NCBI GenBank assembly: GCA_017450705.1
Contig: JAFSTC010000112.1
Span: 1 to 64,000 of the forward strand
Length of the DNA: 64,000 nucleotides
Source: Lentisphaeria bacterium
GTDB lineage: Bacteria; Verrucomicrobiota; Lentisphaeria; Victivallales; Victivallaceae
Direction: 5' to 3'
Positions 1,731 to 32,016 of the stretch are shown piece by piece. Numbering within the stretch: the first letter of the stretch is position 1; every line of letters begins with the position of its first letter. The translations under genes and the position numbers were made by a program. The notes under the pieces were generated by a model. The model worked only from the letters and a program-made list of their open reading frames with translations. It did no database searches and was not told where the DNA came from.

Positions 1731-4700
1731 TCATATCGCGGCAAGACTTGTGCTCCATTCGGCTCCGACCGAACCGTAATATTTCCATTCGAGGTCGTCT
1801 TCGCCGCGCACCAGCAGTGCGCCGAGATCGCCCGCGGCCGTGCGGATGCGCAGATCGTCCCTGCCGTCCCCGTCGAAGTCGGAGATCTGTTCGACGGAGA
1901 CGCTCCCCAGGTCGCCGATGCCGAACCAGGCCTGCGCGCTGCCGTCCTGGACGAGCCACGCGCCGAAGTAGGTGCCTTTCCGGAGAAGTACGTCGTCGAT
2001 GCCGTCGCCGTTGAAATCGCCGGTCCCCGCGACGGAGATGCCGTCGGTCATGGTGTCGAGGTTGGCCCAGAGAACGGTCCCGTCGGACTGGGTGAGCCAG
2101 GTGCCGGCGAATCCGGCGTCATGGACCAGAACGGTGTCGCTCCTGCCGTCGCCGTTGAGATCGCCGGTCGCGGCGATGTGCCATTCGTCTCCGAGGCTCT
2201 GGAAATAATTCCACCCCTGCTTTTCGCCGGCGGTGAGATAACAGCCGACCGCGCCGTTTTCGTTGCGGAGCAGAAGGTCGCTCTGATCGTCACCGTCGAA
2301 ATCGCCGATACCGAGGACTTGCGTGGCGGAATCGAAGGATTCCACGGTTTCCCAGCCCGTGACCTTGCCGGAATCGTCGGTGACCCAGGCGCCGACGATG
2401 TTGCCGGTGCTCTTCAGGTAAATGTCGTCGGATGTCTTTCCGGAAGAGGTGACGCCCGTTCCGAAGATCTCCCAGCCGGGATTGCACGTGCTCAGATCGC
2501 CCCAGACGGCGGTCTGATCGGACTGGATGAGCCAGGCGCCGGTGGAACCGTATCCGGGCGAAGCCGTATCCGTGATGGTCATGATGACGTCGGCTCTGCC
2601 GTCGCCGTTGAGATCGTTCCCGACGGATCCCGGTTCAGCTTCGGAGATCGTCAGCGTGAGCAGGTTTTCCGCTGCGGCCAGATCGTAGACGCGGTTCCCG
2701 AAGCGGATGTGATCGGTCGTCACGGCTCCGTCGACGACCGTGAACGCCGAGCCGGCCGACGTCCCATTGACGGTCAGCACGATGTCGCCGCTCCAGGAAT
2801 CGACACCGGAAGCCACTTTGTAGATGCCCGTCTCCATGGCGGCGGCGACGGCGATCCCGGTGATCCCTCCGGAGAGACGGGCCCAGCCGTTGACCGCGGC
2901 GGGCGAATCGTGCGTCAGGCTGGTCAGCGAGACCGTGAAGACGCCGTCGGAGTTGTTCGTCACGGCGGCGCCGAAGGTCGTTTCCCCCGTTACGGTGATG
3001 GTCCCGGTATTCCAGATGGTGTCGCTTGCCGTTGCGAATGTGCATCCGTCCATCGTCAGCGCTCCGTCGTTCCAGATCGCGCCGCCCTCGTCGGCGGTGT
3101 TGCCCGAGAACGTGCAGTCCGACAGGGCCGCCGCGCCGCCGTTCACCTGGATGAACGCGCCGCCCTGGGTCGCCGTGTTCTCCTGGAACGTACAGCCGGA
3201 GATCGTGATCGACTCCGCGTAGCTGTTGGAGATGGCGCCTCCCTGCGCCGCGGTATTTTGGGAGAACACGGCGTTTTCGACGGAGCCGACGCTCCAGTTG
3301 GCGATGGCGCCGCCGTCGTTCGAACCTGCGGTGTTGCCGGAGAAAGTCCCGCCGGAGACGGCGAGCGTTCCCCAGCAGTTGCAGATCGCCCCGCCGCCGT
3401 AGGTCGCGGAGTTGCCGGTAAAGTCGGTGTCTGTGACCGACATCGGACTTACGGTGCCCGCCTGATTGTAAAGTCCTGCGCCGTAGTGGGCGCTGTTGGC
3501 CGAAAATCCGCCGCCGGAGATGTTCAGGCTGCCGTAGTTGATGACCGCGCCGCCGCAGCCGCCGTTCCATGGGTTGGAGGGATCGACTTCGGCAAGGTTG
3601 TTTTCAAAGACGGCATCCGTGATCGTGACCTCGGCCGCCCCGGTGACGTAGACCGCACCGCCCATGCCGCCGAGTTTTTTGTCGGCGTCGAAATACGCGC
3701 TGTTGGCGGTAAAGGTGCCGCCGGAGACGACCGTCGCACCGGAACCGTCGGCGTAGACCGCGCCGCCGGAGAGCGCGGAGTTGTCCACGAAAGCGCCGCT
3801 CGAGACGAGCAGAGCGCCATCGTTCCAGACCGCGCCGCCCGACTCGGCGGCGTTGCCCGAGAACGCGCAGCTCGTCAGCTCCGCCGTGCCGCCGTTCACC
3901 TGGATGAATGCGCCGCCTTGGGTCGCCGTATTGGCCTGGAACGAACAGCCGAAGATCGTGATCGACTGCGCGTAGCTGTCGGATATGGCGCCTCCCTGCG
4001 CCGCTGTGTTGCCGGAGAACACGGCGTTTTCGACGGAGGCGACGCTCCAGTTGGCGATGGCGCCGCCGTCGCTCAGAGTTGCGGTGTTGCCTGTAAAAGT
4101 CCCGCCGGAGACGGCGAGCGTTCCCCAGCAGTTGCAGATCGCACCGCCGCCGTAGGCCGCCGAGTTGCCGGCAAAGTCGGTTTCGAAGACCGACATCGGA
4201 CTTACGGTGCCCGCCTGATTGTAGAGTCCGGCGCCGTAGTAGGCGCTGTTGGCCGAGATCTCGCCGCCTGAGACGGTCAATGCGCCGTAGTTGATGACCG
4301 CGCCGCCGCAACCGCCGTTCCATTCGCTGTCGGGATCGACTTGGGCGAAATTCTCGCCGAAAAGCGCGTCCTTGATCGTGACCTCGGCTGCTCCCGTGAC
4401 GTAGAGCGCACCGCCCATGCCGCCGAGTTTTCTGGCGGTGTCGAAATACGCGCTGTTGGCGGTGAAGGATCCGCCGGAAATGACCGTCCCGCCGGAACCG
4501 TCGGCGAAGATCGCGCCGCCGGAGAGCGCGGAGTTGCCCGCGAAAGCGCCGCTCGAGACGAGCATAACGCCGTCGTTTCGAATCGCGCCGCCCTCATCGG
4601 CGGCATTCCCTGAGAAGACAGCCCCCGAGATGGTAAGGAAGGATTTCTGCTGTGAGTAAGTATCGACCATCACTGCGCCGCCGGAACCGGCGGTGTTTCC

Positions 4701-5357
4701 CGAGAACACGGCGCTTTCGATCAGAGCCGAAGCGCCTTGATGCACTTCGACGGCGCCGCCGAATCCCGCGCTGTTGGCGGTGAAGGATCCGCCGGAGACG
4801 ACAGCCGTGCCGCCGTCCAGGGACACCTCGAATGCGCCGCCGTAGGTCGCGGAGTTGCCGGAGAACGAGGCTCCCGATATCTCCGTCGTGCCGCCGATGG
4901 CGAGGATCGCGCCTCCTCCTCCGGTCGCCGTATTGGATGTGAAGATGCCGCCGGAGATGCTGATGGTACCGCAGTAACCCTCTATTGCGCCGCCCTGTCC
5001 GAGATAGGTGCCGGAGGTCGTCGCCCGGTTCGCGGTGAACGTGCCGCCCGAAAGAACGATGCCGCCGAAGGTCGCGCAGATCGCGGGACCGTACCACTTT
5101 TCGGCGCCGGAGCAGACGATGTCCGTTCCGGAAAAGACCGCGCCTTCGTCGTTGACATTGATGCCGCTCGCCACCGCACCGGATCCGGCGCTGACGACCG
5201 TGCCCGCCCCCATGGAGGTTTCGGCGACGGTTCCGCCGGACGTGACGACGATCCTGTCATTTCCGCCCGCTTCGAGAACGGCCGCATACGAGGAGCTGCC
5301 TTCAAAAGTTACCGCGCCGGAGGAGTAGACCGTTACCGGATATTGCACACTGGCCAT
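1731..5357 (-). CDS. Giant surface protein: Pmp-like beta-helix repeats plus FG-GAP-like repeats
   Basis: 1208-aa repetitive protein. Residues about 95-790 are dense in GGAI/GGAV and FxxN motifs (for example [12 protein letters not shown]), the hallmark of chlamydial polymorphic outer-membrane protein repeats that fold as a right-handed beta-helix. The last ~280 residues carry FG-GAP/VCBS-like units with [17 protein letters not shown] and [10 protein letters not shown] calcium-binding loops. I see neither an N-terminal signal peptide nor a C-terminal autotransporter barrel, so the export route is unclear. An internal 753-bp tandem duplication accounts for two nearly identical 251-aa blocks. 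AAAGGA precedes the ATG at 5357 by about 9 bases. The gene has its own promoter and a leader of about 320 nt. Adhesin or glycan-binding role is inferred. Confidence 0.8.
3068..4573 (-). repeat. 753-bp tandem duplication inside the Pmp-like gene
   Basis: Two adjacent blocks, 3068-3820 and 3821-4573, match at an exact offset of 753 bases (251 codons). I checked the offset at several anchors: the CGTTCCAGA/CGTTTCGAA motif at 3068, 3821 and 4574; GCGTTTTCGACGGAG at 3271 and 4024; and AAAGCGCCGCTCGAGACGAG at 3790 and 4543. The blocks differ at scattered positions but keep the frame, so this is an in-frame repeat-unit expansion that has started to diverge. Confidence 0.9.
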
Positions 5358-5681
5358 GTTGAAGATCCTTTCTTTTTGCCGCGACGGCAGTGCCGTCTGA
5401 TGTTTTCGATCCGGCGTCCGAAAACGGGCAGAAAAGGAGGACCTGCCGGACTTGCCCGGCGGGCCTGATGCCGGAGAGAGCTCCGGAAAACGGACATAAT
5501 CGTCCCTGTCATCTTTACCTTTCTTGCGTTACGGGCGCAATCCCGGAGCCGTCAGACTCCGGAGCAGATAAATTCAGACCCCCGCGGGACCCGGCTTGCC
5601 GTTTTTCCGGCTCACGGTTGCTCGACAGTTCGTGACTTTCACACGATTCACCGCGCAGGATCCACCGTCAAAAATGACGTT
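5358..5681 (-). promoter_or_regulatory. Long structured 5' leader of the Pmp-like gene
   Basis: Between the predicted promoter (5688-5716) and the start codon lie about 320 non-coding bases rich in inverted repeats. These include GACGGCA-G-TGCCGTC (5383-5397), GCCC-GGC-GGGC (5454-5464), CCGGAG-AGAG-CTCCGG (5471-5486), a second CCGGAG...CTCCGG pair around 5544-5563, and CGTCA-AAAA-TGACG (5666-5679). No reading frame is convincing here. A riboswitch, attenuator or stability element is possible; I could not match it to a known class. Confidence 0.5.
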
Positions 5682-30951: not shown

Positions 30952-32016
30952 ATGAAAAGGTTTGTTTTTGCCGTGGCGCTCTTCGCAGCGCTTGTCGTGT
31001 CCGCAGTCGATCTGCCGCTGCTCCGGTATGCGCCCGATGCGACCGTCTGCGTCGTCCAGGTGGATGTGACCCGGATGCTGAAACATCCGGATGTCGTCAA
31101 GACGCTGAACGAGCCCGAAAACCTCAAGACCCGGCTCGAGTTCGAAAAAATGACCGGCGTCCGGGTGGAGGATTTCAAAAAAGTTGTCCTGTTCATCAAG
31201 TCTTCCGGCGAGGCGCTGGTCCTGGTCAATGTCGATGACAAATTCAACATCGAGCAGGTCTTCGCCAAAAACAAGGTCGCGTTCAGCAAGATCGACACGA
31301 AAGGCGGTTCCGTTCTTCGGCTGGCGGAAGCCGGGCGTCGTGGCAAAAAGGTCGAGATCTTCTCCGCCGCTCCCGGGGTCATCCTCTGCGGCGAGGAGGG
31401 GGACATGGTCTCGTATCTGGGACAGCCCCGCGGCAAGGCCGAGGCCGTGGCCGCCGTCGTCGGGCAGATCCCCGAAGATCCCCCTGTGTGGCTGGCCTTC
31501 GCCAATCTATTCAAGAATCCCCAGGGAAAGATCGACGATCCCCGGCAGCTGTATCTGACGTTCCGGTTTTCCGGGCCGAAGAAAAACGATCTCGATTTCA
31601 AGATCAAGCTCTTCTGCGGCGACGCCGAGGGAGCGCAGCTTCTCTCCGGGACCATTCCCATGTACCTGAACATGGGGATCGCTCTGGCCGTCAACGATCC
31701 GGCGCTGGGCAAGGAGATCGTTTCCTGCGTCAAGATCAAGGTTGTCGAGAAGGATGTTCTCATCGACGTGTACATCCCCGAAGCGCTTTCCGTAAAGATG
31801 GCGGACTATTTCAAGAACAACGCCGACCGGCTTTTCAAGCAGGGAACGGATCAGCCCGGCGAGGATGCCGCCGCGAAACCGGGGACGGCGCCTGCCGCGA
31901 AACAGGCTGCGCCCGCTGCGAAACAGGCTGCGCCTGCTGCGAAACAGGCTGCGCCCGCTGCGAAACAGGCTGCGCCCGCTGCCGGAAAACCCGCGGCTGA
32001 AGGTCAAGCCAAGTAG
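30952..32016 (+). CDS. Secreted protein of unknown function with PAAKQAA repeat tail
   Basis: 354-aa protein with a signal peptide (MKRFVFAVALFAALVVSA, cleavage near AVD). The body (about 20-305) alternates strands and helices (ATVCVVQVDVTRML, AVAAVVGQIPEDPPVWLAF) and resembles the periplasmic 'DUF3352-like' proteins, but I cannot name it. The tail from about residue 305 is a low-complexity Ala/Lys/Pro/Gln stretch built from 21-bp repeats. GGGAG precedes the ATG at 30952, two bases after the aspS stop, so translation is coupled. The first gene of an envelope group (lytic transglycosylase, DUF3047, tatAC) follows. Confidence 0.75.
   Translation: MKRFVFAVALFAALVVSAVDLPLLRYAPDATVCVVQVDVTRMLKHPDVVKTLNEPENLKTRLEFEKMTGVRVEDFKKVVLFIKSSGEALVLVNVDDKFNIEQVFAKNKVAFSKIDTKGGSVLRLAEAGRRGKKVEIFSAAPGVILCGEEGDMVSYLGQPRGKAEAVAAVVGQIPEDPPVWLAFANLFKNPQGKIDDPRQLYLTFRFSGPKKNDLDFKIKLFCGDAEGAQLLSGTIPMYLNMGIALAVNDPALGKEIVSCVKIKVVEKDVLIDVYIPEALSVKMADYFKNNADRLFKQGTDQPGEDAAAKPGTAPAAKQAAPAAKQAAPAAKQAAPAAKQAAPAAGKPAAEGQAK
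31891..31974 (+). repeat. Four 21-bp tandem repeats encoding PAAKQAA
   Basis: Units start at 31891, 31912, 31933 and 31954 and read CCYGCYGCGAAACAGGCTGCG with only third-position changes. A degenerate fifth unit follows. They encode a flexible Ala/Lys-rich tail and are a likely site of length variation between strains. Confidence 0.92.

Follow-up and report, generated by a model that had tools for sequence, protein, structure and literature searches.

The window analyzed here is a stretch of 64,000 nucleotides from a Lentisphaeria bacterium. An open reading frame on its reverse strand, at positions 1731 to 5357, encodes a leaderless, modular adhesin-like protein of 1,208 amino acids. An AGGA Shine-Dalgarno sequence (5366 to 5369, reverse strand) lies ahead of its ATG. 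This ATG is the only start in the 5' end region, and the open frame upstream of it contains no other ATG, GTG, or TTG. The first ~90 residues are an AIDA-like strand-loop-strand sequence (5088 to 5357, reverse strand; boundaries approximate). No signal peptide was found in this N-terminal part, where the maximum 11-residue hydropathy is 1.14, as judged by a hydropathy heuristic and the missing upstream starts. A sequence-only reading of this DNA had noted the lack of a visible export signal. This is borne out: the first residues do not form a signal peptide, and the longer gene model that could have supplied one does not exist.

Residues ~91 to 790 (2988 to 5087, reverse strand) consist of Pmp-type GGAI/FxxN repeats. 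The region matches the Pfam family Chlam_PMP (PF02415) with an E value of 9.3e-23, and TIGR01376 matches it as well. The protein contains 22 GGA[I/V/F/L/W] motifs, compared with a mean of 1.1 and a maximum of 6 in shuffled sequences, together with 23 FxxN motifs, which confirms the repeats seen earlier in its middle part. Going by the fold of the family, this region is predicted to be a beta-helix; a full-chain AlphaFold model built without an alignment was too poor to use (mean pLDDT of 41) and was set aside. Self-alignment revealed a 753-bp unit present in two adjoining copies on the reverse strand, the first covering residues 248 to 498 (3864 to 4616) and the second covering residues 499 to 749 (3111 to 3863), with similarity extending ~54 bp further, to 3057. 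When the gene is shifted against itself by exactly 753 bp, 807 nucleotides match in register with 86% identity, and the two 251-codon units are 79% identical in amino acids. The duplication scores 527, whereas codon-shuffled genes reach no more than 16.5, and this likewise upholds the tandem duplication first proposed from the sequence. Given a dN of 0.124 and a dS of 0.244 between the copies (NG86), the duplication is old, and it bears no sign of rapid change. The accompanying suggestion that the protein varies in phase or length is not supported, since the copies are 14% apart and no slippage tract is present. Elsewhere in the window, a 21-bp unit is repeated 4.5 times within an open reading frame (31888 to 31982; 94% matches).

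The C-terminal 299 residues (1734 to 2630, reverse strand) form the module that the protein has in common with a genome-wide family, a predicted six-bladed FG-GAP beta-propeller that we propose to act in type I export and folding. Pfam detects FG-GAP repeats in the protein with an E value of 2e-12. An AlphaFold model of the tail, built on an alignment of 39 homologous tails (the A1 profile), has a mean pLDDT of 94.5, 23 strands, and no helices; we read this model as a propeller of six ~48-residue repeats and not as a membrane barrel. The FG-GAP-like loops recognized earlier at the C terminus thus belong to a predicted propeller, and the C-terminal beta-barrel that would have pointed back to an autotransporter is not what the model predicts. 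An acidic loop of the DxxxDxxxD type is kept in five of the six blades: DLNGDGRAD in blade 1 (2589 to 2615), DFDGDDQSD in blade 3 (2277 to 2303), DLNGDGRSD in blade 4 (2136 to 2162), DFNGDGIDD in blade 5 (1992 to 2018), and DFDGDGRDD in blade 6 (1854 to 1880), all on the reverse strand. The best solved matches to the tail in Foldseek include the Streptomyces UmbA4 propeller and GlcNAc-binding Psathyrella lectins, and sequence searches of solved structures gave short or weak matches only, mainly to integrin alpha-V. No full-length NCBIfam model exists for the tail, and Pfam finds no match to PF00353, the GGxGxDxxx nonapeptide family, in the protein. The conserved C terminus belongs to the propeller or closes it, and no free stretch that could be a dedicated C-terminal signal is seen.

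These features bear on two explanations of how the protein might leave the cell. Like the chlamydial Pmp proteins (PF02415, TIGR01376), it carries GGAI/FxxN repeats, but it has neither their signal peptide nor their barrel. Its strong Pmp repeat scores would suit a Pmp-like autotransporter that has lost both ends through misannotation or gene decay. Yet there is no upstream start, the C terminus is a propeller, the same design recurs in at least 18 genes, and the autotransporter barrel PF03797 is absent from the entire genome; we therefore regard this explanation as barely credible. The earlier proposal that both autotransporter ends have been replaced and that export may take another route is supported, whereas the route that it mentioned as a possibility, involving the neighboring pseudopilin, is not supported. 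A prepilin-type gene does start ~38 bp downstream of the window gene on the same strand, its motif 86 bp away, as export through a type II or type IV pilus-like machinery might lead one to expect. Pseudopilin-type genes are common in this phylum, and type II substrates require a Sec or Tat leader. Such a leader is absent here, and none of the 19 other loci has a pseudopilin within 1.1 kb. The linkage was rejected because it is not conserved across the family loci, and export by this machinery is very improbable.

When the 299 C-terminal residues were used as a query, the genome gave 22 places with 68 to 81% identity. Of these, 13 are full-length tails, and the other 9 are fragments cut off where contigs end, 4 of them start pieces and 5 end pieces; the number of genes is therefore at least 18. 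The nine broken copies lie at the ends of contigs C82, C1, C26, C37, C47, C66, C5, and C45 of this genome (G000); gene counts are lower bounds because the conserved tail fragments the assembly. Tails are 71 to 92% identical to each other inside the genome versus 40 to 60% against other genomes. The tail is terminal in all family members, its profile ending 0 to 5 residues ahead of the stop. In this genome it is joined to unrelated passengers. Among them are AIDA repeats, a class 3 lipase (contig C30), CARDB, and the Pmp-type region of the window protein, to which the closest sibling is only 26% identical; in relatives, C10 peptidases bear the tail. The examined members with a complete N terminus, including the lipase and the relatives' C10 peptidases, have no hydrophobic leader, and the 11-residue hydropathy near their starts peaks at no more than 1.8, compared with 2.2 to 3.4 in leader-bearing FG-GAP proteins elsewhere. 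For several siblings, no longer gene model is possible because an in-frame stop lies one codon before the ATG. Generic FG-GAP propellers elsewhere come after Sec signals, and one counterexample is known among distant relatives, L154 of G138, in which a clear signal peptide precedes a diverged tail. The window gene is one of about twenty leaderless surface or secreted proteins with a shared propeller end in this gut-type Lentisphaeria bacterium.

At an E value of 1e-40 or lower, members of the tail family are present in 9 of the 198 class genomes, which include metagenome-assembled genomes (MAGs) whose contigs break within the repeated tails. Strong expansions are found in G154 (26 places), G168 (11), G129 (7), and G138 (11). 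In a collection of named genomes, the full-length relatives come from Lentisphaeria MAGs or an uncultured-bacterium bin, and the remaining matches are generic FG-GAP sequences with 24 to 46% identity.

RTX repeats mark many type I substrates, and in relatives of this organism the FG-GAP tail changes places with an RTX tail on similar passengers. Namely, the passengers of L276 (G165, RTX tail) and L062 (G129, FG-GAP tail) are 46% identical over 311 residues, and L065 (G168, FG-GAP tail) shares 38% identity over 668 residues with L277 (G142, RTX tail) and 37.5% over 373 residues with L268, an RTX-tailed protein whose gene is part of the G051 type I operon. The RTX tails give no match to the FG-GAP profile. 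AIDA passengers sit on both kinds of tail within the genome studied here. This swap is the strongest argument for the propeller standing in for an RTX tail, and it indicates that the leaderless family is probably exported by the type I route. It also lends indirect support to a putative uncleaved C-terminal secretion signal. The N termini of L065, L260, L268, and L277 are leaderless and occur with both tail types; some have an HExxH-type zinc-protease-like motif, no Pfam peptidase matches them where scanned, and they are possibly an undescribed metzincin-like group.

The tail could instead be a surface-retention or glycan-binding (lectin-like) module, with the export signal in the passenger or the N terminus, a version in which type I export might still operate. 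The nearest solved folds, the UmbA4 FG-GAP-type propellers and the GlcNAc-binding lectins, point in this direction, as does the resemblance among the N termini of many AIDA-type siblings. However, the same kinds of leaderless passenger carry either this tail or RTX, the tail is also found on enzymes that have no need for surface retention, and we consider this reading unlikely.

The genome encodes machinery suited to type I export. A single HlyB-type exporter combines ABC_membrane, ABC_tran, and C39-like domains; it scores 652 bits against TIGR01846, under that model's cutoff of 726, and directly after it comes a HlyD that lies above the TIGR01843 cutoff. Three proteins contain TolC-type OEP domains and are candidate partners of HlyB and HlyD. 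The genome also encodes an Aah/TibC-type O-heptosyltransferase (HEP; TIGR04414, 565 bits; PF21129) at positions 4312 to 5448 of contig C82. After it, in the same orientation, comes an AIDA open reading frame that contains 25 TIGR04415 stretches and is truncated where the contig ends. TIGR04415 target repeats are present in siblings of the window protein, which itself has no match to this model. HlyB and HlyD are not beside the window gene or the other examined FG-GAP genes in this genome. The HlyB homolog (L139; G000 contig C92, 1778 to 4495) has an N-terminal extension of ~170 residues ahead of its C39-like domain, and HlyB open frames of ~850 to 970 residues are usual among relatives in the class. 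The only open reading frame in this genome with RTX (PF00353) matches at an E value of 1e-6 or lower encodes a leaderless AIDA and RTX protein of 4,492 residues (L274, 2008 to 15483).

Gene order in relatives brings these components together in clusters whose genes share one strand: HlyB-HlyD-HEP, HEP-FG-GAP protein, FG-GAP protein-HlyB-HlyD, and HEP, an AIDA and RTX adhesin, HlyB, and HlyD. Most genomes of the class that carry HlyB and HlyD have the two side by side. In G150 and G181 the order is HlyB-HlyD-HEP, with overlapping or touching frames, and in G053 and G051 HEP is followed on one strand by a leaderless AIDA and RTX protein, HlyB, and HlyD. RTX-tailed proteins come directly after HEP in G152, G165, and G142. 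HEP adjoins FG-GAP-tailed proteins in G154, G187, and G143, and an FG-GAP-tailed protein precedes HlyB-HlyD in G135; the tails of G135, G187, and G143 are distant homologs of the A1 profile. Across the 198 genomes, 71 have both HEP and HlyB, 9 have HEP alone, 39 have HlyB alone, and 79 have neither, so that HlyB is found in 71 of 80 HEP genomes (Fisher's P = 1e-15, phylogeny ignored). For the FG-GAP family, the association with HlyB is not significant (7 of 9 genomes with the family versus 103 of 189 others; P = 0.30) because HlyB is widespread in the class. In G150 and G181, a second ABC-exporter-like open reading frame of ~560 residues (L254, 3476 to 5170; L255, 3547 to 5202) lies just upstream of HlyB-HlyD-HEP and matches HlyB with an E value of ~1e-37.

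We consider it probable that the window gene belongs to a lineage-expanded leaderless family exported in one step by a type I system, with a propeller in the place of the RTX tail. We take as established the lack of a leader and a barrel, the predicted propeller, the family structure, the tail swap, the linkage in relatives, and the presence of the machinery, and we infer export by a HlyB/HlyD/TolC-like system, calcium-driven folding, the position of the signal, and an adhesin function. The propeller would remain unfolded in the low-calcium cytoplasm, and its C-terminal part would engage the ABC transporter. The protein would then pass from the cytoplasm to the outside in a single step through HlyB, whose C39-like domain is of the inactive type, HlyD, and a TolC-like porin. 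Once outside, the acidic loops would bind calcium, the propeller would fold, and the folded propeller may assist in retaining the passenger, a long beta-helix, or in pulling on it. In the AIDA-type siblings, the passenger would probably be O-heptosylated first, in the cytoplasm, by the Aah/TibC-type enzyme; such modification is likely for these siblings, and the window protein has no recognized target repeat. As export is deduced, a cytoplasmic or lysis-released protein, or a different leaderless route, also has to be weighed. The beta-helical adhesin repeats, the lipase and peptidase siblings, the calcium-type loops, and the type I gene linkage in relatives all speak against it, and we find it improbable. 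Taken together, the type I evidence is best read as a protein that works like an RTX substrate yet lies outside the RTX family, having no nonapeptides, and that is not a Pmp autotransporter.

RTX proteins are a class exported by type I systems (reviewed in PMC3034196). The family of the window protein resembles them in being leaderless, in its long repeat passengers and repeated acidic C-terminal loops of the calcium type, in the linkage to HlyB and HlyD in relatives, and in the occurrence of the same passengers with RTX tails. It differs in its tail, which lacks PF00353, closes into a six-bladed FG-GAP propeller, and has no separate signal behind it. The propeller fold and its calcium-type loops are shared with other proteins, among them UmbA4 (9oee), the Psathyrella lectins (2bwm, 5mb4), integrin alpha, and PA5033, but the tail described here is six-bladed, always C-terminal, and conserved as a family tail. 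The AIDA-I and TibA autotransporters are modified by Aah/TibC heptosyltransferases (PMC4358343). Siblings of the window protein likewise carry AIDA (PF16168) and TIGR04415 repeats, and the genome encodes the TIGR04414 enzyme, whereas the proposed route here is not type V and the window protein itself lacks TIGR04415.

Somewhat more tentatively, though still on the favorable side, we propose a Lentisphaeria-specific branch of type I secretion that handles AIDA/Pmp adhesins and hydrolases, some of them heptosylated in the cytoplasm by TibC-type enzymes, and in which a calcium-loop propeller replaces RTX as the module for export and folding. By their gene order in relatives, TibC/Aah heptosyltransferases and AIDA repeats group with HlyB and HlyD and not with type V secretion, to which they are conventionally linked. 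Our search of the open-license literature found no report of a propeller in place of RTX or of a link between TibC/Aah and HlyB/HlyD. If this explanation is true, it would suggest that the tail of a type I substrate need only be terminal and folded by calcium, for which a closed propeller would suffice, and dozens of leaderless proteins of gut Lentisphaeria would become predictable as secreted.
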